In this document: one piece after another, positions 2,675-27,037 of the stretch | How the letters are laid out: each line of letters opens with the position of its first letter | Numbering within the stretch: position 1 is the first letter of the stretch | DNA from: a virus | Direction: 5' to 3' (one strand) | Virus record (IMG/VR): IMGVR_UViG_3300019886_000018 | Span: 1 to 30,478 of that record | DNA length: 30,478 nt | Made by a program: the position numbers and the translations under genes | The notes under the pieces: generated by a model | Databases searched by the model: none | What the model was told of the DNA's origin: nothing | What the model saw: only the letters and a program-made list of their open reading frames with translations

Positions 2675-2877
2675 ACCCTTTGATTTTTGTCCAGTGCTGA
2701 GCCTTCCGCATCCTTTTTTCCCCGCTCCCATTCTTTTGTGTTTTCAGTGCTGGAGAAAATATTGAAAGCGCAGTTCGTTAAATTCGATCCATTCAATCCG
2801 CAATCGTAACCCATTTTGTAGGCGTATTCCTTGTCTTTCTTTTCAGGAATGAATCTTTTGATTTGTTCGATGTTCAT
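2671..2877 (-). CDS. RMF/CrpP-like small protein
   Basis: The 68-residue protein has the layout YAYKMGYDCGLNGSN..NCAF......EWERGKKDAE. This A-Y-x-x-G-x-x-x-G-x-x-G, C-x-F, W-x-x-G-x-x-x-A order is that of ribosome modulation factor and of the CrpP-type relatives that are common in plasmids and phages. RMF dimerises 70S ribosomes; whether this phage member touches ribosomes is unknown. It overlaps both neighbours by ATGA junctions (2874-2877 and 2671-2674). The family assignment is by pattern memory, and the protein could simply share a short helical fold. Confidence 0.55.
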   Translation of the reverse strand: MNIEQIKRFIPEKKDKEYAYKMGYDCGLNGSNLTNCAFNIFSSTENTKEWERGKKDAEGSALDKNQRV

Positions 2878-3335: not shown

Positions 3336-3562
3336 GGAGGAAGGGGGTTAATGATACTTTTTACTTCCTCAACCTTTGAAACGGGGACACGCATCGTCTT
3401 TGTCGGCTCTCCCTTCGGGCGGCCTGATCCTTTGCGCTTACCGCCGTGACGGAATTTGATTTCGTGAATATCGTTAGCGATTGATTTAAAGAATTCTTTT
3501 TCCTTTACGGTTTTGCCGCCGATCTTGAATTTTAAATCATTTGTTGTTAATTTCTTTTTCAT
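3326..3562 (-). CDS. Small basic protein with GGKRxGSGRP motif
   Basis: From the ATG at 3562 the product has 78 residues and carries HGGKRKGSGRPKGEPTKTMR followed by VPVSKVEEVKSII. The G-G-x-R-x-G-S/A-G-R-P-x-x-x-x-T-x-x-x-R-V-P signature is frequent in small phage proteins and looks like a basic, AT-hook-like nucleic-acid contact followed by a ribbon-helix-helix-like segment. DNA binding is an inference. A longer start at 3583 exists; 3562 was chosen because it gives the ATGA overlap with the upstream stop, as at neighbouring junctions. Confidence 0.55.
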   Translation of the reverse strand: MKKKLTTNDLKFKIGGKTVKEKEFFKSIANDIHEIKFRHGGKRKGSGRPKGEPTKTMRVPVSKVEEVKSIINPLPPCP

Positions 3563-3741
3563 TTGGGTGATATGGTTGACCATGCGAAGGCCCCACTAAC
3601 TCTAGCACCTCGGCTTTCCACGTGGTTTAATTTTATGGCCTGGTTTTCGGCATCGGTCTTGGAAAATGATTTTATGTCGTGATAGATATAAAAATTACCG
3701 GCGTTCATTTCAACACGTACTGTCCATAGTTTCTTTTTCAT
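3559..3741 (-). CDS. Small hypothetical protein
   Basis: The protein has 60 residues (MKKKLWTVRVEMNAGNFYIY at the start) and looks like a short beta-rich domain followed by a helix (FSKTDAENQAIKLN). This arrangement, a strand pair and then a helix with AENQA, is common in small phage accessory proteins that modify nothing recognisable. It has ATGA overlaps at both ends, which supports expression. Function unknown. Confidence 0.5.
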   Translation of the reverse strand: MKKKLWTVRVEMNAGNFYIYHDIKSFSKTDAENQAIKLNHVESRGARVSGAFAWSTISPK

Positions 3742-3941
3742 GGTTCGATTAATTCAGCCCCTTCGTGGTAGGCTTGTTTTTTTTCTTTCAAAATGAAAGC
3801 GCAAATTTCACTTACACACAAATCAAAAGTTTCTCTTTTCATTTCGTTAGCATAATCGTCGCCTAGCATTGCATGGGATAATATTGCCCGAACGTGACAG
3901 TTTAAGATATTTTCCTGATCTATTTTTATTTCCTTATTCAT
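3738..3941 (-). CDS. Small hypothetical protein
   Basis: From the ATG at 3941 the product has 67 residues (MNKEIKIDQENILNCHVRAI at the start), mainly helical and acidic. The frame is open upstream to 4049, but that part lies wholly inside the gene at 3943-4140; the internal ATG falls 1 nt after that gene's stop and is the natural start. The stop overlaps the next start as ATGA. The sequence is not recognised. Confidence 0.5.
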   Translation of the reverse strand: MNKEIKIDQENILNCHVRAILSHAMLGDDYANEMKRETFDLCVSEICAFILKEKKQAYHEGAELIEP

Positions 3942-3942
3942 A

Positions 3943-4140
3943 TTACCAAGGTTTTTGTGTTTCAACTTTAGCGCGAATTTCTTTGATTTGACTATTGACA
4001 CTAGCCGGAACCAGATAACCTGCCTTTCCATGATCCACAATAGAACCATTTTTGTATCCGATGCCGTTAGCCCTAATAAGCTTGCTAATTTGGATTTCTG
4101 CGACTCTCTTTGCTTCGAAGTATTTTGCTACTGTTTTCAT
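3943..4140 (-). CDS. Small hypothetical protein
   Basis: The 65-residue, basic protein begins MKTVAKYFEAKRVAEIQISK and ends in a helical stretch (NSQIKEIRAKVE). I do not recognise it. It is the first gene after a 181-nt gap on the minus strand and has a candidate Bacteroidota promoter 23-52 nt upstream, so it may open a sub-operon running to 396. Its start is preceded by ACAGACACC, also found before the gene that starts at 2115. Confidence 0.5.
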   Translation of the reverse strand: MKTVAKYFEAKRVAEIQISKLIRANGIGYKNGSIVDHGKAGYLVPASVNSQIKEIRAKVETQKPW

Positions 4141-4162
4141 GGTGTCTGTTTGTTTCGTTATG

Positions 4163-4192
4163 TAAATCTACACCCTATTTTGATATTTGCAA
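4163..4192 (-). promoter_or_regulatory. Candidate Bacteroidota-type promoter
   Basis: On the minus strand, TTG (4192-4190) is followed after 19 nt by TAGATTTA (4170-4163), one base from the Bacteroidota -7 consensus TAnnTTTG, with the usual spacing to a -33 TTG. Transcription would begin about 17 nt before the start at 4140. The rest of the 4141-4321 gap is A/T rich with no further feature seen. Confidence 0.4.
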
Positions 4193-4321
4193 CACAATTC
4201 AAAGGAAAAAATTAATTTATTTTTTGTCCCTTTTTACGGTCAGAAATGCTCTTTTTTTGGGCCGATTTAGCGCCCTTTTCATCGTATCTTCATTTTATAG
4301 TGTTCGATAGGGGTCAGGTGG

Positions 4322-4510
4322 CTAGAATTTATCCGTTATTTCTTTTGCCGCTTCGTCAACGTCCTTTGCTGCTGATTTAAGCAGTTTCTTTGTTGCGTCA
4401 GGCTCTTCTCCGGTGACAACGTTTACGACGTCCTTCACTATTGCAATAGGAGTTAGCGCGGTCTTAACTGTTGCGCTTGCGAGGTCTGAAATTAAATCAA
4501 GTAGTCCCAT
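4322..4510 (-). CDS. Small amphipathic phage protein
   Basis: The 62-residue protein begins MGLLDLISDLASATVKTALT and continues with a second helix (PIAIVKDVVNVV) and an acidic, Ala/Lys-rich tail (KSAAKDVDEAAKEIT). It resembles a family of small phage proteins with the pattern M-G-L-L-D-x-x-x-x-x-x-x-A-T-V-K-x-A-L-T-P-I-A-V-V-K-D-V, function unknown. The amphipathic helices could lie on a membrane. Its leader is one of the four copies of the junction repeat (4517-4545). Confidence 0.55.
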   Translation of the reverse strand: MGLLDLISDLASATVKTALTPIAIVKDVVNVVTGEEPDATKKLLKSAAKDVDEAAKEITDKF

Positions 4511-7541: not shown

Positions 7542-8156
7542 TCATAGTCCTTTGGCTTTTCGTTCTAGTGCTTTCTTATCTCCTAGTGATATTTTAGTCT
7601 CACCATTCACTTGCCCATTCGCTTTAAATCCGTTGAGCGTAACCCTGAACTTTTGTTGTGTTTTCATCTCCCAATCGTTCCTCGTTGCCACCGAGAGAAA
7701 CTGGTTTAATTCCTCTTGGGTTATCTTTCGGCCCTTCATTTGTTCCCAGTATTGATCATTTTCCTCAACAATCAACTTTCCCCAGTCACTCCATTCTTTA
7801 TCCCAATTTATAGTTTCAGTTTCATTTTTAGTTTCCATATGTGGAACATATGATGAAGAAGTCTTTTTGTCTGATGTTCTATTTTTTGACCTAGATTCAC
7901 TAAACTTCTGCCGTCTAATAGTCTCAACCTCAAGCCGTTCATTAAAAAAATTTCCTTGTGGGTCTTTTTTGAATTTGGCCATCACTTCTTTATCATGTGA
8001 CTTACATATGATTAACACTTGTTTGTCTGTTAGGTGTCCGTGTTGGTGTTGTGCCATCAGTAACCTCATATATTTGCCCACCTGTTCATCACTGAAAAAC
8101 TGGGTTCCGGTATTAAAATCTCCCGGGTAGAAAAGAAAAGCCGGGTCTTTAGCCAT
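7542..8156 (-). CDS. DUF1376-like replication initiation protein
   Basis: From the ATG at 8156 the product has 204 residues and begins AKDPAFLFYPGDFNTGTQFF, then SDEQVGKYMRLLMAQHQHGH, an N-terminal winged-helix type domain seen in DUF1376 and related phage replisome organiser proteins (F-x-F-Y-P-x-D-F, G-x-Y-x-R-L-L). A central NETETINWDKEWSDW leads to a C-terminal region ending RKAKGL. Proteins of this type bind origin DNA or load the helicase. The longer frame to 8216 starts with GTG inside the upstream HNH gene; 8156 is preferred because it coincides with the conserved N terminus. Confidence 0.7.
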   Translation of the reverse strand: MAKDPAFLFYPGDFNTGTQFFSDEQVGKYMRLLMAQHQHGHLTDKQVLIICKSHDKEVMAKFKKDPQGNFFNERLEVETIRRQKFSESRSKNRTSDKKTSSSYVPHMETKNETETINWDKEWSDWGKLIVEENDQYWEQMKGRKITQEELNQFLSVATRNDWEMKTQQKFRVTLNGFKANGQVNGETKISLGDKKALERKAKGL

Positions 8157-8682
8157 TGATATACTTCGGCTTATTTTCGTGGTAGAATGGATAGACCTCA
8201 TCAAACTCATCCACACTTTCAGTCATTGAAACCTCGGGCGCAATAAAATCATTATTGTACCTAACTTTATGTTTATCTAGAATCTCTTTAAATTTGATTG
8301 TGTGTTTACCCCTTAGAAACTGAAAAAATAGCGCTATCTCCAATAGTCTTTTTGGTGGTATATTTAAGTCCAAAAATGCCTGCTGCCAGTTAATTGAATG
8401 ACATGATTCATGACACTGATGACATAATGTAATCAGTGCGGCATCAGGATATTCCCAGGGCATCGCATCTTTGATATAGTAAAGATGATGTATATGCAGA
8501 GTCTTTTCTTTTGAAAGGCATTCCCTACACCTCCACCCATCAGCCTCAAGTATTTCCAATCTCTTTTTTTGCCATCTCGGGTCTTTTAGTAAGTCAGAAT
8601 AATTTTTTTTTAATTCCTTGATCGGCGTTGGGGTCGCTGACTTAAAAATTGCTTGTAGGTTTACTGTAGATTTTTTTCTCAT
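8149..8682 (-). CDS. HNH endonuclease
   Basis: The product from ATG 8682 has 177 residues. The motif is complete: YSDLLKDPRWQKKRLEILE at 28-46, C52 and C55 (CRECLSKEKTLHIHHLYYIK), H65-H66, and C87-x-x-C90-H91 (LCHQCHESCH). This is the classical phage HNH nuclease. It may help in packaging, recombination or homing. The C-terminal third, with acidic ends, is not recognised. The frame stays open upstream to about 8815 without ATG (a TTG at 8709 is possible), giving a coding-looking extension. Confidence 0.8.
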   Translation of the reverse strand: MRKKSTVNLQAIFKSATPTPIKELKKNYSDLLKDPRWQKKRLEILEADGWRCRECLSKEKTLHIHHLYYIKDAMPWEYPDAALITLCHQCHESCHSINWQQAFLDLNIPPKRLLEIALFFQFLRGKHTIKFKEILDKHKVRYNNDFIAPEVSMTESVDEFDEVYPFYHENKPKYING

Positions 8683-8817
8683 AAAGCCAAAAGTATCCCG
8701 GCCAGCCAAAAGCTGAAGGCGCGAACCAATGTCAGACCGGAAGATCCGATATGCTTTTAGTGACCGGGAATGTTTTTGAGTTTTTCCATTGATTCGCGAA
8801 ACGAAGTAACGTTTTTA

Positions 8818-15076: not shown

Positions 15077-15234
15077 CTAAACTAATCTCCTACGGAACGC
15101 GTCTTGAAAAATCTTCTTTGAAGATCGCCAAGGTTCAGGCTAAATTTGAAAAGCGGTCGGTGAATAGTTTGATTCAGATTGCCATTGATCGGTACTTGGA
15201 CGAAACCAGGGCGCAACGAATTGAGAACAATTAA
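15073..15234 (+). CDS. Ribbon-helix-helix protein
   Basis: The 53-residue protein has a short strand (LISYGTRLEKSSLKIAKVQA) then two helices with the RHH spacing (KRSVNSLIQIAIDRYLDE), as in Arc/MetJ/CopG-type DNA-binding proteins. It could repress a phage promoter as a dimer, or be a small tail-less partner of an unseen toxin, but no toxin gene adjoins it. Start ATG overlaps the preceding TGA as ATGA, and the following gene begins with TTG inside its last codons. Confidence 0.65.
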   Translation: MTKLISYGTRLEKSSLKIAKVQAKFEKRSVNSLIQIAIDRYLDETRAQRIENN

Positions 15235-15736
15235 TATCATCGGATGCGGTCCTTCCGCTGAACTTTGGGACGGCAAAGGGGAAAGTTTAGGGGTAAACGA
15301 TTGTGAGAAGACAGGAAAGAAGGTAGACAAACTTTTAGTTGTGGACTTCCCGCTTAAATTCTCCAAGGAACGATTCGACGTAATTCAAAACAGCAGCGCA
15401 GACTTTTACACGCAACTGATGGCCTGGAATAAATACAAGTCTCACCGTTTTAACCTTATTCATTTCAACCGTTGGCGGGGAAGGCTGGAGACTGGAAAGG
15501 TTGCTTGCTCTTTAACGTCTCCGTTCGTTGCGATCTCACTCGCTTGGTCTTGGGGTTATCAGGAAATAATCCTCTGGGGGGTTGACATGAATAATAGACG
15601 AGAATATCACGACGAGGAAGTTTCAAACATTAAAAGTCTGTGCGCTTGCCTTTGGAAGGATGGGGTTAAAGTTTGGTTGGGAACCGAAGGGAGCGCACTT
15701 AGTTTTCTGAATTTAAAGGATTGGGTGATAAAATGA
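15221..15736 (+). CDS. DUF115/GT42-like Rossmann protein
   Basis: The product from TTG 15221 has 171 residues. It opens RTINIIGCGPSAELWDGKGE and ends a conserved block with TSPFVAISLAWSWGYQEIIL followed by WGVDM. The order G-C/N-G-P-S ... G-V-N-D ... T-S-x-x-x-A-x-x-L-A-x-x-x-G-Y-x-E-I-x-L-x-G-V-D is that of DUF115-like and GT42 sialyltransferase-like proteins, which bind a nucleotide-sugar or related nucleotide. It opens the glycan-modification block. A longer frame starts at 15179 (TTG); the chosen start overlaps the RHH gene by 14 nt. The substrate is unknown. Confidence 0.6.
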   Translation: MRTINIIGCGPSAELWDGKGESLGVNDCEKTGKKVDKLLVVDFPLKFSKERFDVIQNSSADFYTQLMAWNKYKSHRFNLIHFNRWRGRLETGKVACSLTSPFVAISLAWSWGYQEIILWGVDMNNRREYHDEEVSNIKSLCACLWKDGVKVWLGTEGSALSFLNLKDWVIK

Positions 15737-16374
15737 GCTTTTGCGCAGTGGTCCCTGATAGAGGTGACCGTAAAGAGTTAATGTCCTTCTGCCGTCACCA
15801 ACTTGAACGAATGACCGTGAAGCCTGACAAGGTTTATTTTGTTGACCATCCCCCGGAGAACGGGACGACAGATTTAACGGGCAGAATCAGGACCGGGATA
15901 AGCAGGGCGCAAGCTGATGGGATTGAAAGAGTTTTTATCATTGAGTCAGACGACGCGTATCCTAAAGATTACTTCGAGCAAATGTTAAAAGGCTGGCCAC
16001 AAGGAGTAAAGATCATCGGGGCAAAGGCTACGCTGAACTATAACCTTCGTTACAATGCGTACCAAAAAGATGAGCATCCCGACCGCTCAAGCCTTCATCA
16101 CACGGCCTTTGACCTTTCGGCGCTGGATAGATTCAGTTGGCCACAGAACGACTACATCTTCCTGGATAAAAAGATTTGGACCTACGTAAACCGGCAGCAC
16201 ATTCAAGCGGATCTAATCGCTCAACCGTTGGTCGTGAGCATGAAACACGGAATAGGGAAGACAGGGGGCCGTGGTCACCACATGAATTACCAAAGGAAAG
16301 ACCCCGACCGGAGTTACTTGAAGTCGATTGTCGATAGTGAAGCTTTTGTGTTTTATCAAAGTTTGAAGGTATGA
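15733..16374 (+). CDS. GT-A-type glycosyltransferase
   Basis: The 213-residue product begins MSFCAVVPDRGDRKELMSFC, with VVPDRGDR in place of the classic V-x-T-x-x-R-x N-terminal strand of GT-A enzymes, and has ERVFIIESDDAYPKDYFEQM at about 65-84 whose E-S-D-D (71-74) fits the DxD metal site. It would transfer a sugar from a nucleotide-sugar to a glycan or protein. ATGA overlaps join it to the genes before and after. It belongs to a run of similar genes whose acceptor is not known. Confidence 0.7.
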   Translation: MSFCAVVPDRGDRKELMSFCRHQLERMTVKPDKVYFVDHPPENGTTDLTGRIRTGISRAQADGIERVFIIESDDAYPKDYFEQMLKGWPQGVKIIGAKATLNYNLRYNAYQKDEHPDRSSLHHTAFDLSALDRFSWPQNDYIFLDKKIWTYVNRQHIQADLIAQPLVVSMKHGIGKTGGRGHHMNYQRKDPDRSYLKSIVDSEAFVFYQSLKV

Positions 16375-17093
16375 GTCTCATTTCTTTGCTCCATCCATCT
16401 AGAAGTCGTATTGACCGCTCTTTTCAAACGACTGAAAAATGGGTAGCTAAGTCTCGCGCCCATCTTGGAATTGAAGTTATCATTTCGTTGGATGAAGATG
16501 ACCCCCAACTAGAAACATATAAAGAGGTTTACACTGGCTACGAACAAGTGATTGTCAACCCCAACCGTTCCGCTGTCGATGCTATCAACGCCGCCGCTAA
16601 AGTTGCTACGGGTGACATAATGATCGTCCTTTCAGATGACACCGATTGCCCTGATAATTGGGCCGAGCTTATTGAGAATGAAGTCAGGGGAAAGAAGGAC
16701 TTTGTTTTGAGGGTGGAGGATGGAATACAAAGTTGGCTCGTGACAATGCCATGTTTCGACCGGGCCTATTACAATCGGTTTGAATATGTCTATTGCCCTG
16801 ATTACCGGCACATGTTTTCAGATACGGATTTTACGCACGTTGCTTTCGGCCTTGACCGAGTTATCAAATCAAATCTTCTTTTCCCGCATCTTCATTATTC
16901 GGTGAAGAAGCTAGGCATAAAGCCAGACGAAATTAACCACCGCGCGGACCAGACGACAACGGAGGGAAGAAACCTTTACTTGGAAAGATTTAAGAGAGGA
17001 TTTGACATGCCAGGATTCGACGTTTGGAGCTTCGAGGATTTGGATCACGAAAAATGGCTCAAGGCTCACGGATTTAAACGGCCATACAGATGA
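16371..17093 (+). CDS. Family-2-type glycosyltransferase
   Basis: The 240-residue protein has SLLHPSRSRIDRSFQTTEKW (residues 4-23), GIEVIISLDEDDP, NPNRSAVDAINAAAKVATGD (63-82) and MIVLSDDTDCPDNW (84-97). The D-x-x-D-P, N-A-A-A-K/x-x-A-T-G-D and S-D-D-T-x-x-P motifs are those of GT2-like GT-A enzymes, with DDT (89-91) as the metal site. The sugar and acceptor are unknown. It overlaps its neighbours by ATGA on both sides. Confidence 0.75.
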   Translation: MSLISLLHPSRSRIDRSFQTTEKWVAKSRAHLGIEVIISLDEDDPQLETYKEVYTGYEQVIVNPNRSAVDAINAAAKVATGDIMIVLSDDTDCPDNWAELIENEVRGKKDFVLRVEDGIQSWLVTMPCFDRAYYNRFEYVYCPDYRHMFSDTDFTHVAFGLDRVIKSNLLFPHLHYSVKKLGIKPDEINHRADQTTTEGRNLYLERFKRGFDMPGFDVWSFEDLDHEKWLKAHGFKRPYR

Positions 17094-17674
17094 AGTTAAG
17101 TTTACTGATCTGCACCCTCCCCCAAAGGCGCGACTTCTTTCAGTCTCTCATGCGAGAACTGCGCAGGCAACTACAAACCTTGAACGCATGGAGCGAAGTA
17201 GAGATTCTTTCCGATGATGGTCAGGCAATTTCAATAGGAGAAAAGCGGAATTATCTTTTAAGTATCGCCGATGGTGACTACCTTGCATTCATTGACGACG
17301 ATGACCGCGTTTGCCCGAATTACATCAAACTTTTACTTGAAGGAATTGCAACCAATCCAGACGCTTGCTCCCTTCACGGCATAATAACAGATGACGGAAA
17401 AAACCCAAGACACTTTTATCATTCCTTAAAATTCACTTCATGGTATGAGGAAAATTCGGTATATTACAGATACCCTAACCACCTGTCAACCATTAAGTCA
17501 TCTATCGCTAAACGATTCAAATTTCCTAAAATAAATACCGGTGAGGACCACGATTGGAGTACTCAAATTTTTAAATCAGGATTGATAAAAAGTGAATATT
17601 GGATTGACGAAATAATTTATTACTATGACCATAGAAGCGTTAAATCAGAGATGGGCCAAAATCCCAGGCATTAA
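17090..17674 (+). CDS. Family-2-type glycosyltransferase
   Basis: The 194-residue protein is a clear GT2 domain: MKLSLLICTLPQRRDFFQSL at the start, SIGEKRNYLLSIADGDYLAF (48-67), FIDDDDRVCPNYIKLLLEG (67-85) and NTGEDHDWSTQI (149-160), the last being the E-D catalytic-loop type motif. The overlap with the preceding gene is 4 nt. The 3' end is overlapped for 50 nt by a NUMOD4-like mini-gene in another frame. Confidence 0.8.
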   Translation: MKLSLLICTLPQRRDFFQSLMRELRRQLQTLNAWSEVEILSDDGQAISIGEKRNYLLSIADGDYLAFIDDDDRVCPNYIKLLLEGIATNPDACSLHGIITDDGKNPRHFYHSLKFTSWYEENSVYYRYPNHLSTIKSSIAKRFKFPKINTGEDHDWSTQIFKSGLIKSEYWIDEIIYYYDHRSVKSEMGQNPRH

Positions 17675-17747
17675 CTATGAGGCGTGTGAGTCGGGTATTA
17701 TACGTCACTCTAAAAGTGGTAAAATTAAAAACGTATATGATCGTTAG
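17625..17747 (+). CDS. NUMOD4-like mini-protein
   Basis: A 40-codon frame begins at ATG 17625 inside the end of the glycosyltransferase gene and stops with TAG at 17745-17747. It reads RWAKIPGINYEACESGIIRH and then SKSGKIKNVYDR. W-x-x-I-P-G-x-x-Y-E-x-S/C-x-x-G-x-I-R is the NUMOD4 signature that normally begins HNH homing endonucleases. Here only this module is present, with no HNH domain following; the next gene starts 3 nt after the stop, in the same frame. It is either a stand-alone motif protein or the remnant of a homing endonuclease. It is the only gene in the 17675-17750 gap. Confidence 0.5.
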   Translation: MTIEALNQRWAKIPGINYEACESGIIRHSKSGKIKNVYDR

Positions 17748-17750
17748 GTT

Positions 17751-18614
17751 ATGAAAGGCTGTCTGTCTTATTCGCTTTTTGGCTACGATGCCAATCAAAA
17801 GTCAGGATTCGACTTTCCTTCTTTTGTTCGCGGGTTAATGGTGAACGTCCGGTTCAATCGCTTGCTTTATCCTGGGTGGGTGAACGTCATTCACATGGAC
17901 AAGGAAAGTTATTCCTCCAAATACCAACCCCTTTTTGATTGGCTGATTGACCGTGGATTTATTGACGTTGTTATTTGCCCCTCAAATGAAGCGTTGTGTA
18001 AGGCAATGCTCTGGCGGATGAAACCTATTTTTGAAACCACCAAAACAGGGGATTTGAAATACACGCACACTCTTTGCCGGGATCTTGATTCGATTTGCAC
18101 CTATCGGGAAGTTCAGGCGGTTACCATTTGGCTACAAGAACAAAAGGTAATCCACTGTATCACCGATTCTGTTTCCCACAATATCCCAATGATGGGCGGC
18201 ATGATCGGCATTTGGGCAAATACATTCGCTGACAGGGTGAAGGCCAGAACGTGGGACGAACTGATGAACAAATCAGACGGTATAAATTATACAGTCAAGG
18301 GAGCCGATCAGACCTTCCTTAATAAATACGTTTACCCGCCTTGCGCCGATTCAGCTACCGAGCATTTTGTTTTAGGGATGGTCCACAACCTACCAGAGGA
18401 AAACGGAAGGCATTACTCCATTGAGGATATTCAATTGCCGATAAACGTGAGGTATAAAGCCAGTAACGACTGCGCGGGACATTGCGGGGCGGCCGGTTAC
18501 TACGACATGCCGACAATGAACTTTCTAAAAAACATCGACCCTCATTCAAAAGAATATTGGGAAATCGAGGATCAATTTAAAGGGCTTTTCCCATGGGCGT
18601 ATGACAGATACTAA
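17751..18614 (+). CDS. GT-A-type glycosyltransferase-like protein
   Basis: The 287-residue product has KSGFDFPSFVRGLMVNVRFN (17-36), YTHTLCRDLDSICTYREVQA (104-123) with a D-L-D metal motif at 111-113, and SVSHNIPMMGGMIGIW (140-155). R-x-x-D-L-D-S-x-x-x-x-R-E ... H-x-x-D-x-x-x-H-x-x-x-x-x-G-G-M-x-G is the pattern of a sugar-transferase-like group common in Bacteroidota. It lies in the same block as GT2 genes and overlaps the next gene by 14 nt. Substrate unknown. Confidence 0.65.
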   Translation: MKGCLSYSLFGYDANQKSGFDFPSFVRGLMVNVRFNRLLYPGWVNVIHMDKESYSSKYQPLFDWLIDRGFIDVVICPSNEALCKAMLWRMKPIFETTKTGDLKYTHTLCRDLDSICTYREVQAVTIWLQEQKVIHCITDSVSHNIPMMGGMIGIWANTFADRVKARTWDELMNKSDGINYTVKGADQTFLNKYVYPPCADSATEHFVLGMVHNLPEENGRHYSIEDIQLPINVRYKASNDCAGHCGAAGYYDMPTMNFLKNIDPHSKEYWEIEDQFKGLFPWAYDRY

Positions 18615-19275
18615 ACTAGCCTTTTGCACCTGTGCCGTTTGGAGTAAGAACTACGGCAACGCCTATTTGGATCAGCAGCAGACCCTCATCGACTCCATCC
18701 GGCGAATTTACTGGAACCAAGAACAAGCTGAAATATTTGCTTGGCGGGATGAATATCCTCCTGGTTCCCGTGATTGGCTTACTTCCTCATATGGTTTCAA
18801 GCCTTGGGCCGTCCAGTATGCTTTAAATCAGGGTTACAAAAAGGTAGTCTACATGGATACGGCTATGATTCTAAAGGAAAAATTACCGATCAGTCAATAT
18901 GACCATCTTTCCGAAACTTACGGGGTGTTGGCCGCGAAGGATGACAGCAGTTTGACTAAGGTCACATGGGGTCTGGCTTGTGAATACTTTGGAGTATCAC
19001 GTGAATGGCTCGGCGGGAAGAACTTGGTCGGCGGGTCGTTCTATTATTTCAACTTTGAGAATGATAAATGCCGGACTATCTTTCAAGCGTGGAAGGAAGC
19101 AGAAATGGCTGGTATGTTTGGATCGCAGGAGGGCGAGAGCGCTGGTATTCAAAACGGACATAGATGTGATGAGACGATAATGGCGATCCTTCTTTATTTC
19201 TATGGCATTGGTCCATGTAGCTATGACCAAGTAGGTTATCAGGGCGAAACAATGGTTAAGAAACATTTCCGATGA
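18601..19275 (+). CDS. GT8-like glycosyltransferase
   Basis: The 224-residue product contains RDWLTSSYGFKPWAVQYALN (57-76), YKKVVYMDTAMILKEKLPIS (79-98) and GGKNLVGGSFYYFNFEN. The Y-G-F-K-P-W-A-x-x-x-A-L, V-x-Y-M-D-T, G-x-x-x-x-x-F-N pattern resembles enzymes of family GT8/glycogenin-like GT-A fold, where M-D-T stands for the D-x-D site. The second half, GESAGIQNGHRCDETIMAIL, fits the C-terminal D-x-x-x-x-x-x of that fold. No acceptor can be named. Confidence 0.6.
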   Translation: MTDTKLAFCTCAVWSKNYGNAYLDQQQTLIDSIRRIYWNQEQAEIFAWRDEYPPGSRDWLTSSYGFKPWAVQYALNQGYKKVVYMDTAMILKEKLPISQYDHLSETYGVLAAKDDSSLTKVTWGLACEYFGVSREWLGGKNLVGGSFYYFNFENDKCRTIFQAWKEAEMAGMFGSQEGESAGIQNGHRCDETIMAILLYFYGIGPCSYDQVGYQGETMVKKHFR

Positions 19276-19475
19276 AAAAGATATTGACTCCATTAATTAT
19301 TTTATTATGTCTTAATGCCTGTTCTCCGAAAGTATATACTAATTCCTTAATTGATCAGCGAAAAAAACATACGCAGAAAATAACCTCAAAAGATATTACT
19401 AATGGTAGGATCTTTATATTTACCTGTATTGGTCTTGGTTTTTGGATTGGTGCAAACGTTGCTAAAAATGATTGA
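19272..19475 (+). CDS. Small lipoprotein with membrane segment
   Basis: The 67-residue protein has a lipoprotein signal with lipobox LNAC (IILLCLNACSPK, about 9-20) and a second hydrophobic segment at about 47-63 (IFIFTCIGLGFWIGANV). It could be anchored in the outer membrane by lipid and in another membrane by the C-terminal helix. The start overlaps the preceding stop by 4 nt and the stop overlaps the methyltransferase start by 8 nt. It is the only secreted protein in the glycan block. Confidence 0.6.
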   Translation: MKKILTPLIILLCLNACSPKVYTNSLIDQRKKHTQKITSKDITNGRIFIFTCIGLGFWIGANVAKND

Positions 19476-20028
19476 GGTTATACATGAGCATTCGGTAGAT
19501 ATATCGCTATTGCCGGCAAAGGCGATTATCCTTGATCTCGGTTGTCGTGGATTCGCCTTTACTAATCACTTCCGCGAATTAGGCCACACTGTTCACGCCG
19601 TTGACATTGACGATTTACAGCATGGAGACTACGACCAATGCGCGATAACGAACTATACCGGCGAATGTGGCATTTGGAGAAACAACGATCCACAGGCAAC
19701 AAAAATAGACCCACTGAATATTAATCTTGAATCGGCTCGGTGCTATACCTTGGAGGATTACATGACTTTAAAGAAAGTTGAGTTTTGGGACTTGGTGAAA
19801 ATGGACGTTGAGGGTGCGGAATTTGAGATTATCATGGATATGAAAATGGCACCCGCTAAAATGATCAGCCTTGAATGCCATATGCACTGCGGACAAACTA
19901 TGGAGGAATGCCAACTCATGTTTATGAGGTTAGCTTTTATTGGCTATCAATGCGTGTCAGGTGAAGAATTAAGTGAGGCGCACGGAGCTGGGCGAAATTT
20001 TTGGAATATGTTATGGATACTAAAATGA
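19468..20028 (+). CDS. FkbM-like SAM methyltransferase
   Basis: From ATG 19468 the product has 186 residues with AIILDLGCRGFAFTNHFREL (19-38) as the SAM-binding loop, HAVDIDDL (43-50), and WDLVKMDVEGAEFEII (107-122), the D-V-E-G-A-E motif of FkbM-type O-methyltransferases. It probably methylates a sugar or glycan made by the surrounding transferases. The frame is open upstream to 19402, but that part overlaps the lipoprotein gene and is hydrophobic in another frame; 19468 is the first ATG after it. Confidence 0.75.
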   Translation: MIEVIHEHSVDISLLPAKAIILDLGCRGFAFTNHFRELGHTVHAVDIDDLQHGDYDQCAITNYTGECGIWRNNDPQATKIDPLNINLESARCYTLEDYMTLKKVEFWDLVKMDVEGAEFEIIMDMKMAPAKMISLECHMHCGQTMEECQLMFMRLAFIGYQCVSGEELSEAHGAGRNFWNMLWILK

Positions 20029-20105
20029 CGAACGGCCAGAATGCTTGAACATGGTTTACGATGCTTGTAAGACTATCCGGGAGGACTACGAAAGACTAAA
20101 GCGGA

Positions 20106-20630
20106 ATGATTGAACTAAAGCCTGATAATGGGTGGATTGCGGAAGATGTCGCCGGGAAGCGTTATCCCTGGTTTACCGCTGGAGCGTTGGAATATTTAAA
20201 TCAAATAGACTATACCAATAAACAAATTTATGAATTTGGTTGTGGGTATTCTACGCTATGGTTCCGTTCACGTGGGGCGGTTGTCCATGGGGTAGACTCA
20301 ACACGTGAGTGGGCGGACTTTGCAGGGGTTCAGTACCTGCCAGAAAAAGAACAATACCTTAACCCTAAATCATTGCTTTATTGGTTGGGGCGACCAACTC
20401 AGTATGACATAGCGGTAGTTGATGGTGAATGGAGGGATGAGTGTGCGTCCCTATGTATCCAAACTATTAAGCCGGGAGGATTGGTTATTATTGATAATTG
20501 GATGCAACCGAGCGTCCCGCCTAATGAATGGTTCAGAACTTTAGATTTACTTGCGGCCAAGAGACTCCCGCACACAGTTTACCGGCAAGAGGGGCATCCG
20601 GATTGGTCAACGCTCATAATCCAATGCTAG
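20106..20630 (+). CDS. SAM-dependent methyltransferase (class I)
   Basis: The 174-residue protein contains YEFGCGYSTLWFRSRGAVVH (42-61) as SAM motif I, VDSTREWADF as motif II, YDIAVVDGEWRDEC (100-113) and KPGGLVIIDNWM (122-133). This is a class I (Rossmann-fold) methyltransferase; D105 and the D-N pair are typical of glycan or small-molecule methyltransferases. The gene starts after a 77-nt gap; its neighbour downstream overlaps it by 7 nt. Confidence 0.75.
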   Translation: MIELKPDNGWIAEDVAGKRYPWFTAGALEYLNQIDYTNKQIYEFGCGYSTLWFRSRGAVVHGVDSTREWADFAGVQYLPEKEQYLNPKSLLYWLGRPTQYDIAVVDGEWRDECASLCIQTIKPGGLVIIDNWMQPSVPPNEWFRTLDLLAAKRLPHTVYRQEGHPDWSTLIIQC

Positions 20631-21163
20631 AACAATATCGACGATACTTCCAGCTCTTCCGCGACAATGCGCCGCATCATATGATTATCTGGGGAGGGTA
20701 TCAACGCGGAGAACCTACCGGAATGGCTTCGAGTCTTGAATCTATCCTTGAGTTTGCCAAACTTGTGAAAGACCCTGACGCTGTTATCCTCAACGCAGGC
20801 GCTGGGGCATCTTCTTTTATCCTGCGGCAAATGTTCAAGAATGTAATTTGCACCGATCCTGATTTGAAATATCTTATGGTCGTTAAGGATATTTGCGCAA
20901 AGGCCGGACTGAATACCAACAACTTTATGACGGGGATTTCAGATTGTGATTACTGTTACTACGATTACGGCAACATTGAACGCATCCCAATGATGCCTAG
21001 ATTCATTGACGCTACCAAACACGCTCTTTACGTTGACGATTGCGACACCCGGGCAGAGTGCAAGCAAATGAGGGATTACGTTTACAGTCTTGGATTGAAC
21101 GTGAAAGATTGTGAAGCGGCGAAAGATGAGTATGGAAGGTGGGGAGTAATAATTCAGAAATGA
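20624..21163 (+). CDS. Rossmann-fold methyltransferase-like protein
   Basis: From ATG 20624 the product has 179 residues. PDAVILNAGAGASSFILRQM (51-70) resembles SAM motif I (x-x-x-L-x-x-G-A-G-x-S), and VICTDPDLKYLMVVKDICA (74-92) fits motif II, then CDYCYYDYGNIERI and YVDDCDT. The motif is less canonical than in the two neighbours, so a degenerate or differently used SAM-binding fold is possible. The longer frame to 20528 overlaps the upstream gene; the chosen start overlaps it by 7 nt. The substrate is unknown. Confidence 0.6.
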   Translation: MLEQYRRYFQLFRDNAPHHMIIWGGYQRGEPTGMASSLESILEFAKLVKDPDAVILNAGAGASSFILRQMFKNVICTDPDLKYLMVVKDICAKAGLNTNNFMTGISDCDYCYYDYGNIERIPMMPRFIDATKHALYVDDCDTRAECKQMRDYVYSLGLNVKDCEAAKDEYGRWGVIIQK

Positions 21164-21990
21164 AAAGAAACGTCATTCTATCGGTCAACGAAGATCCTCA
21201 ATACCTATTTTACGTGCCCATAGCCTTATGGTCTTGGCGAAAGATTGGCTGGAACCCTGTTCTGTTTTTTCATGATGGTGGAGCGGTCCTAACTAAGCCA
21301 TTATTTGAATTAGTGCTTAACAGCACGGAAGTCCAAAGGCTAAAACCGATTAAGGGCTATCGTTCAGATACCATCGCACAAATCTCAAGGCTATACGGGG
21401 CACTGTGCGTTGAACCTGGTGAAATAGTCATGACTGCCGACTTGGATTTGATACCCCTAGGTGATTGGTGGTCACCCGACCCATCAAAAATTACAATCTA
21501 TAATCATGACCTTACCGGATACTCTGATTATGCAATCTGCTATTTAGCCGCCACCCGCGAAAGGTGGATTGAAATAATGGGCATTACCGGAGATTATAAC
21601 GCAATGATAGCCCGTGATTTGAAACAAATACCAAATGCCCACGAATCGGTGGAATGGGAGAAACGATGGACGGTCGATCAAGCTTACATTACCGAAAGAA
21701 TCAAGGCGGTACAATTTCAAAAGGAGTTTATCCCCGCCGGACGACTACCAAGCGGATTAGCTAAGGGCCGAGTGGACCGTGGGGGATGGACCCTTAACCA
21801 TGAAACATTCCGGGACGCTCACCTCCATCGGGATCTGTATAAACGATTCCAGAACCCAAGCGATGAACGATATGCATTATTCCAAAAGAAGTGGGAGGAA
21901 CACATGACTTTGCTTCATACCGTTTGGCCCAACGAGAATTGGGATTGGTTTGTGACCTACACGAAAGAATTTTCAAAACTCGCCCAATGA
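21160..21990 (+). CDS. GT-A-type glycosyltransferase-like protein
   Basis: From ATG 21160 the product has 276 residues: MKRNVILSVNEDPQYLFYVP (1-20), WNPVLFFHDGG (31-41), and PGEIVMTADLDLIPLGDWW (86-104). A-D-L-D-L-I-P (93-99) is the metal-binding D-x-D site of GT-A enzymes. The later VDQAYITERIK and GGWTLNHETFRDAHLHRDL (about 205-223) show acidic and His-rich conserved positions. It overlaps the neighbours by ATGA at both ends. Confidence 0.65.
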   Translation: MKRNVILSVNEDPQYLFYVPIALWSWRKIGWNPVLFFHDGGAVLTKPLFELVLNSTEVQRLKPIKGYRSDTIAQISRLYGALCVEPGEIVMTADLDLIPLGDWWSPDPSKITIYNHDLTGYSDYAICYLAATRERWIEIMGITGDYNAMIARDLKQIPNAHESVEWEKRWTVDQAYITERIKAVQFQKEFIPAGRLPSGLAKGRVDRGGWTLNHETFRDAHLHRDLYKRFQNPSDERYALFQKKWEEHMTLLHTVWPNENWDWFVTYTKEFSKLAQ

Positions 21991-22667
21991 TCTTCGCCCT
22001 GAACATCTGCGGAAACCGTGACCGGGAACTATCCGAACTCATGGAGACTACTTTGCGAAAGCATTGCCCGGATTTGGGAGAGTTTGAACGCAGGAACTTC
22101 GACGCTTTAGGTTGGGGTAACGGTTCAGGTTGGGACCCATCAATAATGAAGGTCAACGCAATCAAGTCCATGCTTCGGTTCGGCTTGCGTGACGATGACT
22201 TTATCCTTTGCGTGGATTCGGACGTAGTGTTTTGCACTCCAGAAGTCTTTACTTTCGTCAAGCCTGAATATGGGATAATCGGGATAAAGAACGCGACCGA
22301 CTTTCCCGCTTTGATCGGACCATTAAAGCATATGAGCGGATGCCTTATTTTCCTGCGTGGGGATATTGCAAAGCAGATTGGAAATCTGACTAACGATCAG
22401 CTAAACGAAGTGCGCCGACAATTCAAAAGCGTGGCCCTTACCGAGAACGAGGATATTTTAGTCTCCTATCTTGCCCAAATGCTCGGGGCTGAACACTGCG
22501 CTTTGCCAGGCTACCTTCACGATGGCGATTTTGAAAAGGATATTGTGATCGGGGAACTACGATCGTTCTATCACTTGAATTACCACCCAGATACTTTTCT
22601 CGGTGTGCCTGTTGATGGAAAAGAAGAGTTTGCTAAGGTTCTGGCTGGACTCGGGTATAAACTTTAA
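21987..22667 (+). CDS. GT-A-type glycosyltransferase-like protein
   Basis: From ATG 21987 the product has 226 residues: MIFALNICGNRDRELSELME (1-20), LRDDDFILCVDSDVVFCTPE (67-86) with D-S-D at 77-79, IGIKNATDFPALIG, and CLIFLRGDIAKQIGNL. The VDSDVVF-C-T-P stretch is the D-x-D motif, and H-M-S-G-C-L-I-F matches a following block of the same fold. The long frame beginning at 21891 (GTG) overlaps the upstream gene; this start makes an ATGA junction. Confidence 0.65.
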   Translation: MIFALNICGNRDRELSELMETTLRKHCPDLGEFERRNFDALGWGNGSGWDPSIMKVNAIKSMLRFGLRDDDFILCVDSDVVFCTPEVFTFVKPEYGIIGIKNATDFPALIGPLKHMSGCLIFLRGDIAKQIGNLTNDQLNEVRRQFKSVALTENEDILVSYLAQMLGAEHCALPGYLHDGDFEKDIVIGELRSFYHLNYHPDTFLGVPVDGKEEFAKVLAGLGYKL

Positions 22668-22670
22668 ACG

Positions 22671-23405
22671 ATGCGCCTAGTAGCAATTTATAACGCGTGG
22701 AGTGAAATGCCAGAATTATTGGCCAAGTCAATCCTAAACATCAAACCGGTAGTTGACGGCATTATCGTGGTGTATTCTGATTTTAGCTACATTGGAAACT
22801 TCAAAGAGTTTCCATTGAATGAATTGCCACAGGATGGCGTGCGTTACGTCCGCGCCGATCCTTCACACAACGAAACAAGCAAACGGAATTTAGGACTTGA
22901 TGAAGCCAGGAGATTCAAATACACGGACTTCATTAACCTTGACTGTGACGAATTTTATCGTCAAGAGGACGTTATCCGCGACCGGGCTTACCTTGAATCG
23001 AATCCTTCCGTTAAAGGGCTTGTATGCCGGTTGAAAGTCCTATTTGCCAAACCTACGTTAACCTGTGACGACCATACGCTTGTACCTTATATTCACAAGC
23101 TGACGAGCCGAACCAAAGCCGGGAACTTCCGGAACTATCCTTTTGCCTACGATGACGATGGGGGTGCACACATTGACCCCACCCGCCGATTGAACTACGA
23201 GGACGGTATCCAGATGAGCGATACAATCATGTATCACGCTTCCTGGATCAGGAAAGACTTTGAATTGAAGATAGCCAACAGCCCGGCGGTGAGAAACTTG
23301 AGAAAATCCACTATCTTAGAGGACTTAAAAAACGCTTGTCCGGGGTATTATTGCAAGTTCTACCGGAAGACGCTACATGAATGTGAAAACATTTTTAACC
23401 TATGA
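22671..23405 (+). CDS. Family-2-type glycosyltransferase
   Basis: The 244-residue protein has the motifs MRLVAIYNAWSEMPELLAKS (1-20), VRYVRADPSHNETSKRNLGL (57-76), and FINLDCDEFYRQEDVIRDR (87-105). N-E-T-x-K/R-R-N and the D-C-D-E metal site (91-94) fit GT2-like enzymes that act with a nucleotide-sugar. It starts 3 nt after the preceding gene and overlaps the following membrane protein gene by ATGA. Confidence 0.7.
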   Translation: MRLVAIYNAWSEMPELLAKSILNIKPVVDGIIVVYSDFSYIGNFKEFPLNELPQDGVRYVRADPSHNETSKRNLGLDEARRFKYTDFINLDCDEFYRQEDVIRDRAYLESNPSVKGLVCRLKVLFAKPTLTCDDHTLVPYIHKLTSRTKAGNFRNYPFAYDDDGGAHIDPTRRLNYEDGIQMSDTIMYHASWIRKDFELKIANSPAVRNLRKSTILEDLKNACPGYYCKFYRKTLHECENIFNL

Positions 23406-23722
23406 TTGACGAACTAATCCAAATCCTGTTATTCGTTGCATGGCTCCCGGTAGGGGTAGGATGGATATGGGGCTTTCATTGTCTGTTTTCGGAAGGATAC
23501 ATTTTTGAAGAGTTAGGTAAATGGTTAAACGATAAATTACCTGATTGGATTTGCGACCCACTTTTTGCCTGTCAAATGTGTATGGCGTCAGTGCATGGGT
23601 CGCTTATCTTCTTCCTGTTCATTCGTTACCACATCCAATGGTGGCCGCTGTTCTGCGTGTCTCTTTGTGGCCTGAATTTCATTATCAACAAACTAACCGA
23701 CAAGCATGTTAAGCTGGATTAA
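23402..23722 (+). CDS. Small membrane protein with CxxC, DUF1360-like
   Basis: The 106-residue product has hydrophobic stretches at about 5-25 and 66-95, and between them WICDPLFACQMCMASVHGS, with a C-x-x-C pair. The C-x-x-C-x-x-S-x-H-G feature next to a membrane helix resembles the DUF1360 phage/prophage membrane proteins, function unknown. The protein ends with a charged tail. Starts and stops overlap both neighbours, so it is transcribed with the tail genes. Confidence 0.55.
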   Translation: MIDELIQILLFVAWLPVGVGWIWGFHCLFSEGYIFEELGKWLNDKLPDWICDPLFACQMCMASVHGSLIFFLFIRYHIQWWPLFCVSLCGLNFIINKLTDKHVKLD

Positions 23723-24323
23723 AAGCCTTTTCTCAAAGAAAGTAAAGCCAGTCACAAACTGCCTTTCGCCCAAGTACATCGGTAAAACCGAACCCGCTAC
23801 AATCGAACTTGAGGACGGGAAGGTACTTAACTTCAAGGTAGGAGGCAAACAGTTCTACCGGATGAAGCGTGAAGTGGAAATGCCTTACGGTCGGTATAAG
23901 TTTGTCGCCGCGTTCCTGTATGAGGTTGAGTTGCGCATGACCAGCAAAACCTTGAAAGAATACCTTTCCAAACTAAAAGACATCATCACCGGGACCAAGG
24001 GAACGGTGGATTTGAGTAATGCATATAAAGTAATTTGGGCGATGGAATCCCGCCTTGAACTTAACTTCGAACCCGAAACAGCCCGTAACCTGGCCTCAGT
24101 TGTGTTCTTTGACGATACCGAGGACATGGAGGATTTTGATCAGGAATATGGAAAAAAGAAACTCGAACTATGGGATAAACACAAATTCAGTGCTTTTTTT
24201 TTAACCAAGCCAATGGACGAATTGCTGGGTGTGAGGGGTATCTCGGAGGATATTTTAAAGACCTATATCAAGGAGGCTCAAGAAATAACGGAATACTGGA
24301 ACTCCGTCCTGCTCAAGCAATGA
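23706..24323 (+). CDS. Putative tail assembly chaperone
   Basis: The 205-residue soluble, mostly helical protein lies just before the tape measure gene, the position held by tail assembly chaperones (lambda G). It starts MLSWIKSLFSKKVKPVTNCL and contains a beta part (PATIELEDGKVLNFKVGGKQF) and a long helical part. A -1 slippery site, T TTT TTA at 24197-24203, lies 40 codons before its stop, and the -1 frame is open into the next small ORF at 24320. The chaperone role is inferred from position and this signal, not from sequence recognition. Confidence 0.5.
   Translation: MLSWIKSLFSKKVKPVTNCLSPKYIGKTEPATIELEDGKVLNFKVGGKQFYRMKREVEMPYGRYKFVAAFLYEVELRMTSKTLKEYLSKLKDIITGTKGTVDLSNAYKVIWAMESRLELNFEPETARNLASVVFFDDTEDMEDFDQEYGKKKLELWDKHKFSAFFLTKPMDELLGVRGISEDILKTYIKEAQEITEYWNSVLLKQ
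24197..24203 (+). other. Predicted -1 frameshift site (T TTT TTA)
   Basis: Codons of the preceding gene read GCT TTT TTT TTA ACC (24192-24206), so the zero frame contains T TTT TTA, a classical slippery heptamer, inside a nine-T run (24194-24202). The -1 frame is free of stops from here to the TGA at 24464-24466. A slip would give a product joining residues 1-166 of the gene, with TTT codons, to the -1 frame. Confidence 0.5.
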
Positions 24324-24466
24324 AATCCGACTTCCGGGAACTCCAGGAAATGCAAATCAAGAAAATTGCTAACTTTGAACCAGATAAAGAACCAATATTC
24401 AATGCTCTGTCAATCTTTAGTTTTCTTTTTCACATTCGTGCATTACAGAATGAAAACAAGGAGTGA
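24320..24466 (+). CDS. Small ORF, probable -1 frameshift extension
   Basis: A 48-codon frame begins with ATG 24320, overlapping the chaperone stop as ATGA, and encodes MKSDFRELQEMQIKKIANFE, PDKEPIFNALSIFSFLFHIR, ALQNENKE. It lies in the -1 frame of the preceding gene. It may be made alone or, like lambda T, only as the C-terminal part of a frameshifted protein. It ends 30 nt before the tape measure gene, where a purine-rich GGGAGGA lies. Confidence 0.5.
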   Translation: MKSDFRELQEMQIKKIANFEPDKEPIFNALSIFSFLFHIRALQNENKE

Positions 24467-24496
24467 GTGGGATGGGAGGAAACTTAATCCATTCCG

Positions 24497-27037
24497 ATGC
24501 CCGATCGTCAACAGAATATAAACATCAAGTTCAATACAAATTCCGTTGATCTTGAAAAAGCCGCACAATTATTGAATAAAGCGAAAGCTGCTAATGATGC
24601 GCTCAATCAATCAATCAACAAGACAGGTACTCAAGGGACGCAGGACGTAAAAAGATTTTCATCTACCATTGAGGGATTAAGACTCCAGATGGCCCAACTC
24701 AAAGGACAGATAGATCTCACCAGTCAATCCGATAAGGTCAGGCTAGAGCAGCTTCGTGGGCAATATGCCGCCATGTCCACCCAATTAAAACAGTATCAGG
24801 GTGAACTTTCCAAGACAACAGCCGGTCAAAAGTCTTTAGTCGATGGATTGGGGGGATTATATTCAATGGTAAGGATTGCTCTTACCGCTGGTCTGATAGC
24901 GGAGACTACCCGAGCCGTAATAGAAATGGCAAAATTGAAGGGAACGGTTGACGGAGTAACCCGGGCCTTTAATACCCTTCCGAATGCGACTTTATTAATG
25001 GCCGACCTTAAAGCCAAAACGCATGGCACACTTGATGAACTAACCTTAATGCAAAAAGCAGTTCAGGCTAAGAACTTTAAGATACCGCTCGAACAACTTG
25101 GAACCCTTTTAGAGTTTGCCGCTATCAAAGCCCAACAAACCGGACTGGATATTAATTATCTGGTAAACTCTTTGATAACGGGATTAGGCCGTAACTCTAT
25201 CCGGTTATTGGATAATCTTCAAATATCAGTTACGGAGCTCAGGTCCAAAACAAAAGAATTAGGATCTACACAAGCAGCAGTATTTTTCCTTGTAAATAAA
25301 CAGATGCAGGAAATGGGCGGCTTTATTGAAACTGATGCCGTCAAAGTGGATCAGTTGTCTGCCTCTTGGAAGAATTTTAAAATCAATCTAGCAGAACGAC
25401 TTGAAACAGGGGGAATAATAGGATTTTTCGATAAGGTTGTAACCGGATTGGGATTATTACTTGGTGGGAGTGTAAGATTCGAGACAGCTCAGAAAAATGC
25501 AATTAAGGCTGTAACGGAATTCAAAAAAGCCAATGATCTTTTACTTGATTCAGATAAAAAAATTCAGGCCGTAGAACTGGAATTAGATAAGCTAAGTAGG
25601 AGAAGATTAGAAGATGGTGGTAAATTGAAAGAACTACAAGTTACAATTGACAAGGGTAGTTCATTTCTTGGCGGAAAGGATGAAAATAAACAAATTCAAC
25701 TTGCCAAAGATCAGGCTGACGCGATCAGTAAAAGGAATGATGTAACGGCGGCATCCATAATTTTACTTGAAGCCTATGAAAAATCACTTAGGATAAAGGC
25801 CAAGACTGATGATGATGAACTTGGCATAATAGAACAATATAATGAGAAGGTAAAAAAGGCAAATGAGGAAATCGAACAGTCTACCGATGTAACAGGTAAA
25901 TTTCAAAGGGAGAAAATAAAAGAACGTGAAGAGTTTGAGCGTATTATTGCAGTCTATAGTCTTTCCTCCGCTGAGTTGGACAAGTATGTCGAGTCAATGG
26001 ATAAAGGAAAGGTATCCTCTAAATCACTCCGGGAAGAAATAGCTAAACAGATTGACGCGATTAATGAATCGTTAGCCAAGACTTTAAAACCTCCAACAAA
26101 AGGCGGTGGTCCTGCCGGTGGGTTTATCGGGCCACTTGGACCTGCAGATACTACCAAAGAGGGCGCAAACTCGTCTACCGCCATGCTGAATACATGGTAC
26201 AACAACTATGCGACCTTTTGGGATAAGCTCAAGCTCGGCTTTGATGATCTGAATAGTCATATTCGAAAAGGCACAGTCGCAACGGTGGAAGAGCAGCAAC
26301 GAGCAATGGAGCAAGCTGTAAAGCATCTTGTAAACGCCGTTAAGCAATCCGTTGGAGAATTGGCGGCAAACAGTCTGCAAGCAGAGGTTAAATCTTACGA
26401 TGAAAGGATTGCAGCGAGTGAGGCATATTATAACAGGCAAGTTGGCTTGCTTGGAGATAATCAGAAGGCTAAACAGATTCTTGAAATAAAACACAATCAG
26501 GAATTAAGTAAACTCGAACGAGAAAGAAGTGAAGCGGCAAGACGTGCCGCGTTGATAACTATTACAATAAACACAGCAATAGCAGTTATCAAGGCTTTGG
26601 CTACAGCAGTGACTATCTATGACGGTATTGTCGAGGCGGCTGGGGCGGCAGTAATCGGGGCTGCTCAATATGCAATAGCTTCCTCTGCTCATTACGCTGA
26701 AGGGGTGATTGACCTGAAAGGTCCAGGCACAGAGACAAGCGATTCTATTCCAGCCAGGTTGTCTAAAGGCGAATCGGTAATGACCGCTCAGGAGACACGC
26801 GAAAACATGGGCATCCTAAAAGCAATCAGGGCCAAAAAAATCAATGACAATATTATCTCTGAAATCTTTGCTAAGAGCGGAGGGGCACAAGCTGGATACG
26901 ACTTTACCCGTTTGGAAAAAGCCATTGAGAGAATCCCTAAACCCTCAGACCTAATAAAAATGGGTTCCATGACCTACGAAGCCAAAGAGAAAGCGAAGGG
27001 CCACCGGCAACTGATCCGCAATAAATATTTAGGATAA
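24497..27037 (+). CDS. Tail length tape measure protein
   Basis: The 846-residue protein has a coiled-coil, polar N-terminal region (NSVDLEKAAQLLNKAKAAND), a hydrophobic segment at about 113-141 (SLVDGLGGLYSMVRIALTAG), further helices with GTLLEFAAIKAQQTGLDINY, a Gly/Pro linker at about 534-548 and a second hydrophobic region at about 680-735, then EGVIDLKGPGTETSDSIPAR with LSKGESVMTAQE. The ending D-S-I-P-A-R-L-S-x-G-E-x-V-M-T is typical of tape measure proteins. Its length would specify a tail of roughly 120-130 nm by the usual rule of about 0.15 nm per residue. Confidence 0.85.
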   Translation: MPDRQQNINIKFNTNSVDLEKAAQLLNKAKAANDALNQSINKTGTQGTQDVKRFSSTIEGLRLQMAQLKGQIDLTSQSDKVRLEQLRGQYAAMSTQLKQYQGELSKTTAGQKSLVDGLGGLYSMVRIALTAGLIAETTRAVIEMAKLKGTVDGVTRAFNTLPNATLLMADLKAKTHGTLDELTLMQKAVQAKNFKIPLEQLGTLLEFAAIKAQQTGLDINYLVNSLITGLGRNSIRLLDNLQISVTELRSKTKELGSTQAAVFFLVNKQMQEMGGFIETDAVKVDQLSASWKNFKINLAERLETGGIIGFFDKVVTGLGLLLGGSVRFETAQKNAIKAVTEFKKANDLLLDSDKKIQAVELELDKLSRRRLEDGGKLKELQVTIDKGSSFLGGKDENKQIQLAKDQADAISKRNDVTAASIILLEAYEKSLRIKAKTDDDELGIIEQYNEKVKKANEEIEQSTDVTGKFQREKIKEREEFERIIAVYSLSSAELDKYVESMDKGKVSSKSLREEIAKQIDAINESLAKTLKPPTKGGGPAGGFIGPLGPADTTKEGANSSTAMLNTWYNNYATFWDKLKLGFDDLNSHIRKGTVATVEEQQRAMEQAVKHLVNAVKQSVGELAANSLQAEVKSYDERIAASEAYYNRQVGLLGDNQKAKQILEIKHNQELSKLERERSEAARRAALITITINTAIAVIKALATAVTIYDGIVEAAGAAVIGAAQYAIASSAHYAEGVIDLKGPGTETSDSIPARLSKGESVMTAQETRENMGILKAIRAKKINDNIISEIFAKSGGAQAGYDFTRLEKAIERIPKPSDLIKMGSMTYEAKEKAKGHRQLIRNKYLG

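Follow-up and report, generated by a model that had tools for sequence, protein, structure and literature searches.

A conserved, predicted -1 frame switch at a T-run in a tail chaperone-like gene family of phages

The window analysed here, the whole of a 30,478-base virus record of IMG/VR, carries a run of nine T's inside a short gene just 5' of a tape-measure gene. The locus raises the question whether this run serves a programmed change of reading frame of the kind known from the lambda G/GT tail chaperone pair, and whether the ribosome or the RNA polymerase would be the slipping agent.

The locus and its homologues

The zero-frame ORF of 205 residues ends with the TGA at 24321-24323, 173 nt 5' of an ORF of 846 residues that matches PHROG tail length tape measure models (E 1.5e-8 and 7.2e-8) and, in tblastn, the annotated tape measures of Porphyromonas phages. 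An overlapping ORF pair is found immediately 5' of the tape measure both in the window and in homologue loci. Beside the 205-aa ORF, no gene could be recognised as that of a major tail protein. The features of the region are collected in Table 1.

Table 1. Features of the frame-switch region in the window (all on the + strand)
Feature	Position	Strand	Remarks
Zero-frame ORF, tail assembly chaperone-like (G-like)	24323 (end), 23706 (start)	+	205 aa; 51 sequences aligned
Nine-T run, slip site	24194..24202	+	8-10 T in 99/109 homologues, T6C in the other 10
Heptamer T TTT TTT	24194..24200	+	In-frame; position common to the whole family (one clade T TTT TTC)
Heptamer T TTT TTA	24197..24203	+	In-frame; that of the sequence-only reading; as such in 12/109
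-1-frame extension, C-terminal (T-like) domain	24200..24466	+	88 codons + TGA; end of the predicted 253-aa fusion
ATGA overlap with a candidate -1-frame start	24320..24323	+	Start would be coupled to the zero-frame stop; not conserved
Tape-measure protein gene	24497..27037	+	846 aa; PHROG matches

An earlier sequence-only reading had proposed a -1 ribosomal frameshift on T TTT TTA. This heptamer does lie in the proper zero frame (GCT TTT TTT TTA ACC, 24192-24206), and a second in-phase heptamer, T TTT TTT, overlaps it; shifted by -1, both yield the identical product SAFFF/NQ.... In the -1 frame, the open stretch begins ahead of the T-run and extends to the TGA at 24464-24466, 88 codons from 24200 as had been claimed, and the small -1-frame ORF with its ATG is present, overlapping the zero-frame stop. 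The window by itself is only suggestive, since its -1 frame stays open in about 3% of synonymous-codon reshuffles (for a zero-frame tail of 40 codons).

Homologues have been collected in several ways. A direct scan returned a single relative, 97% identical in amino acids and located on a separate IMG/VR contig, which has the same nine T's and the same frames as the window; the direct scan with the 719-aa downstream protein found no relatives. A terminase search led to 16 loci, and 12 of their records hold a chaperone-like gene with 28-97% identity. An alignment of nine proteins (A1) retrieved 265 relatives from viral contigs, of which 80 were kept, and further alignments added more. Removal of duplicates left 109 distinct sites for comparison (at least 109 distinct sequences), most of them less than 50% identical in protein. 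The A1 search of genomes gave five relatives, all in assemblies assigned to Bacteroidota, and among 395 genomes of this phylum the one match was a Proteiniphilum prophage already in the set. The family apparently derives from phages of Bacteroidota, judging from the genome assignments of these relatives.

Conservation of the slip site and of the -1 frame

Apart from that of one prophage, all complete genes of the family carry an in-phase T TTT TTT or T TTT TTC, placed on one and the same pair of Phe codons. All of the 109 homologues have a -1 frame that continues beyond the zero-frame stop and none has a +1 frame that does, so that the direction of the transition is -1 throughout, one in-frame T10 prophage standing besides. 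None of the 109 has a -1 stop before the position equivalent to 24320, the observation that the sequence-only reading had named as one that would speak against it. The script that located the sites demanded a slip site at or after the opening of the -1 frame; this condition does not explain the uniform result, because it was failed only by the Proteiniphilum prophage, which accounts for three loci of one genome, and by three genes truncated at the end of a contig.

The zero-frame tail that follows the slip site comprises 38-78 codons in the 109 homologues, and the -1-coded extension, 86-113 aa in length, aligns across the family. Open -1 frames in 55 of 55 genes have a nominal chance under codon reshuffling of about -119 in log10, a figure that ignores kinship. 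Both the third-base T before the two phenylalanines and the TTT TTT itself are fixed (nominal log10 about -19 and -27). Background use of TTT is 56%, and the invariant F of the YFD motif in the same genes is encoded by TTT in 35 cases and by TTC in 20. Mean BLOSUM scores within the overlap are 0.80 for the zero frame, 0.70 for the -1 frame and 0.08 for the +1 frame. The -1 frame thus remains open across the zero-frame stop and encodes a conserved domain. AlphaFold models of the -1-coded parts alone are mostly helical with a mean pLDDT of 81, which suggests that the extensions form a conserved helical domain; the zero-frame protein of 205 aa is modelled with a pLDDT of 89 and a pTM of 0.79.

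The comparison also refines the slip site. T TTT TTA has the right phase and would give the same fusion, but the heptamer conserved in the family is T TTT TTT, one codon upstream, with T TTT TTC as its variant; the open -1 frame expected in homologues is kept, whereas T TTT TTA as such varies. After T TTT TTT most members continue with TTG; the next codon is TTA in 12 of the 109 and TAC, TCN, TTY, CAA, CGA, AAA, ATG or CAT in the remaining ones, and because of this variation T TTT TTA is to be regarded as a local feature of the window.

The signal is considered real because at least 109 distinct relatives have retained this switch. Conservation of the slip site, of an open -1 frame and of the domain encoded in it strongly supports a programmed -1 transition just 5' of the tape measure, and some programmed frame transition is almost certainly used in the window.

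A sequencing error in the T-run had been named beforehand as an event that would undo the proposal. It would mean, as would decay of the gene, that the two frames are really one; homopolymer runs are indeed error-prone and the Proteiniphilum assembly does read through. However, identical frames occur in 109 distinct sequences, mostly below 50% identity and each with its zero-frame tail of 38-78 codons. An error in the run is very unlikely because the 97% relative shares the nine T's and the frames and the distant homologues agree, and we give this explanation hardly any credence. Nearly as improbable is that no fusion is made and that ribosomes re-initiate at the ATG of the ATGA overlap to translate the downstream ORF on its own. 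The window has this ATGA overlap, and some start codon is present near the zero-frame stop in 31 of the 109 homologues, but 78 of the 109 have none within about 13 nt of that stop, and only 29 of the 109 have, anywhere in the extension, an ATG with 30 codons left to read. Separate translation also leaves unexplained why the -1 frame is open and conserved in every member for 38-78 codons upstream of the ATG point, and a natural single-ORF fusion exists in the Proteiniphilum prophage. Re-initiation may add a product in the window; it cannot explain the conserved overlap.

The Proteiniphilum sp. X52 prophage (L127, 2917-3660) has, as assembled, a run of ten T's, and its fusion is a single zero-frame ORF of 250 aa whose end matches the -1-coded ends of the relatives. 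The long form is therefore a sensible protein. With ten T's making the fusion the zero-frame product, the short form would need slippage or be lost. In another member, L072 (IMGVR_UViG_3300033148_004524, 2867-4495), the -1 extension has no stop before a tape-measure-like sequence, and a frameshift would therefore give a fusion of chaperone and tape measure reaching the contig end; this arrangement could be real or an indel error.

Ribosomal or transcriptional slippage

The reading we prefer is a lambda G/GT-type chaperone pair in which the -1 slippage, in the window as well, is probably carried out by the ribosome. We infer from the conserved sequences that slippage occurs, that its rate is such as to give a minority product, and that the ribosome slips. 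Most of the expression would then yield the short protein of 205 aa, and a minority would shift by -1 at T TTT TTT or at the overlapping T TTT TTA, leaving the zero frame after residue 165 and adding 88 codons to give the 253-aa fusion, the ribosome being most likely the slipping agent. If the lambda proteins are taken as the model, binding of the tape-measure protein would fall to the N-terminal part common to both forms, and recruitment of tail-tube subunits to the helical domain encoded in the -1 frame.

The same product with the same role would arise if the RNA polymerase added one U on the nine-T run in some transcripts, which standard translation would convert into the fusion; the dnaX gene of Thermus thermophilus is the precedent. 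The caveat of the sequence-only reading that the nine-T run could favour this route is justified. Exactly nine T's are found in 85 of the 109 members, the window among them, and eight to ten in 99, only the T6C clade (10 members) having fewer than eight; in 503 kb of the loci, T runs of nine or more number 67 at the site and one elsewhere. Nine A's or T's suffice for efficient slippage of the bacterial RNA polymerase in vivo (PMC5009743), and slippage of 15-25% is reported at A9 (PMC4256274). A leucine after TTT TTT is always encoded by TTR (40 of 40 representatives against a background of 43%; 78 leucines in the unique set), although this bias could also stem from the -1-coded phenylalanine. 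In members that continue with ATG or CAT, a TTT precedes the site and the run is kept at nine, and the T10 prophage carries the fusion in the zero frame. As a group the T9 members have no detected stimulator: against dinucleotide shuffles, windows of 60 nt and 100 nt gave no downstream structure common to them (mean z about -0.2 to -0.3), and the window has neither an evident downstream structure nor a Shine-Dalgarno-like element.

Against the polymerase stand the direction, the phase and one clade. Direction is a criterion for the type of slippage, since families with transcriptional slippage tend to mix directions (PMC3711429), and here all members shift by -1. The ribosomal model requires a fixed phase, T TTT TTY, as is seen here. 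The T6C clade, which cannot plausibly slip transcriptionally, is the only one to depart from the run, and it does so at the last, degenerate base of the heptamer (Z in X XXY YYZ, giving T TTT TTC). A 10-bp stem with one compensatory change starts 3 nt downstream in this clade, whose structure z-scores average -1.8; this evidence is suggestive only, as a single evolutionary event among close relatives lies behind it. On the fixed direction and the T6C clade with its stem, ribosomal slippage is favoured over transcriptional slippage. It is not proven, because 85 of the 109 members have nine T's and no stimulator was detected for them as a group, and transcriptional slippage is accordingly kept as a serious, though less likely, explanation.

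The switch may also have been kept while its driver changed across the family. The polymerase would then act in most members, the window included, and the ribosome in the T8 lineages by way of a Shine-Dalgarno-like element and in the T6C clade by way of the downstream stem; we regard this proposal as rather unlikely. If true, it would to our knowledge be the first tail chaperone with transcriptional slippage, and it would give a use to the anti-Shine-Dalgarno sequence of Bacteroidia, which is sequestered at initiation (PMC9976891).

Shine-Dalgarno-like stimulators of -1 frameshifting lie 9-14 nt upstream of the slip site (PMC5009743). A strong element of this type is present about 7-13 nt upstream in 11 of the 12 T8 members, with a strength of -9.7 against -4.5 kcal/mol (Mann-Whitney p 1.7e-5, representatives). 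The T8 runs have only 4-5 independent origins, and when the synonymous codons of the eleven T8 genes are reshuffled, 8-46% of trials give an equally strong element; the contrast is therefore a lead only. As a compensator for the shorter run the element was not accepted, since kinship and amino-acid content explain much of it. The sequence AAGGAGG is found 13 nt upstream of the eight-T run throughout one clade (L048, L050-L054), which is noteworthy because Shine-Dalgarno sequences reportedly go unrecognised by Bacteroidia ribosomes, their anti-Shine-Dalgarno being sequestered at initiation (PMC9976891).

Relation to known systems and neighbouring genes

Neither the short protein nor the extension is matched by any model of Pfam, PHROG or NCBIfam, and a tblastn search of 50,697 phage records with the zero-frame protein and a homologous fusion gave no matches. 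A fold search of BFVD has annotated tail assembly chaperones among its weak matches (E 0.08-0.65), and that of the PDB gave Z values of 6 at most. The PDB match of the extension profile to k-cTRP5 (E 1.9e-4) was disbelieved, no stretch passing the threshold alone. As there is no family model, phage match or conclusive fold match, the G/GT-type assignment rests on position, architecture and the recoding signal; tail chaperone function is accordingly suggested by position and architecture, and with the conserved recoding the earlier interpretation as a lambda-like pair largely holds. The family, well conserved and unannotated, joins the likely phage tail chaperones. The open-licence literature gave no description of the protein family or of a tail chaperone switch on a T-run.

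The slip site of lambda is GGGAAAG, and the present family differs from lambda gpG/gpGT in having a T homopolymer instead. The frameshift of tail chaperones is conserved among dsDNA phages (Xu, Hendrix and Duda 2004, as cited in PMC5009743); compared with lambda gpG/gpGT and these chaperones, the slip site and direction are fixed in the present family, which matches no family model. The cluster of HK97-like tail chaperone genes of GeneTack, in which two tested genes gave 6-7% (PMC3711429), is similar in comprising phage tail chaperone genes with a predicted frame transition, whereas the present transition is predicted from sequence and no family model links the two. Another parallel is offered by dnaX, studied in E. 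coli and in Thermus thermophilus (Larsen et al. 2000, as cited in PMC3711429; also described in PMC5009743): in these homologous genes, slippage at a homopolymer may be due either to the ribosome, with the help of stimulators, or to the polymerase on nine T's. The gene and the outcome are different here, and the split in mechanism is hypothetical.

Automated annotation of this locus would cut the protein short and add a small ORF that is spurious. Since natural members differ in run length (T6C, T8, T9, T10) but share one fixed switch, the family lends itself to distinguishing ribosomal from transcriptional slippage, and likewise to testing whether internal Shine-Dalgarno pairing works in Bacteroidota, where it is reportedly unused at initiation.

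Some further features of the neighbourhood were observed. A small membrane-like protein with a conserved F-x-C-x-x-C-M motif is encoded at 23402-23722, just 5' of the chaperone; the window copy has no family match, and counterparts occur 5' of the chaperone in nearly all relatives inspected. A block of glycosyltransferase-like and FkbM methyltransferase genes (15179-23405; Pfam matches Glycos_transf_2 and Methyltransf_21) lies between the terminase and the tail module, where head genes might be expected, and similar-looking genes are seen at the same place in locus L013 and 5' of the chaperone in L058. From about 23946 to 24560, that is from inside the chaperone gene into the start of the tape-measure gene, the DNA is nearly identical to that of L002 (IMGVR_UViG_3300019996_000010) with diverged flanks, which looks like a recombination block. 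A second nine-T run of the window, at 8603-8611, lies within a minus-strand ORF (8149-8709) and is read there as nine A's.
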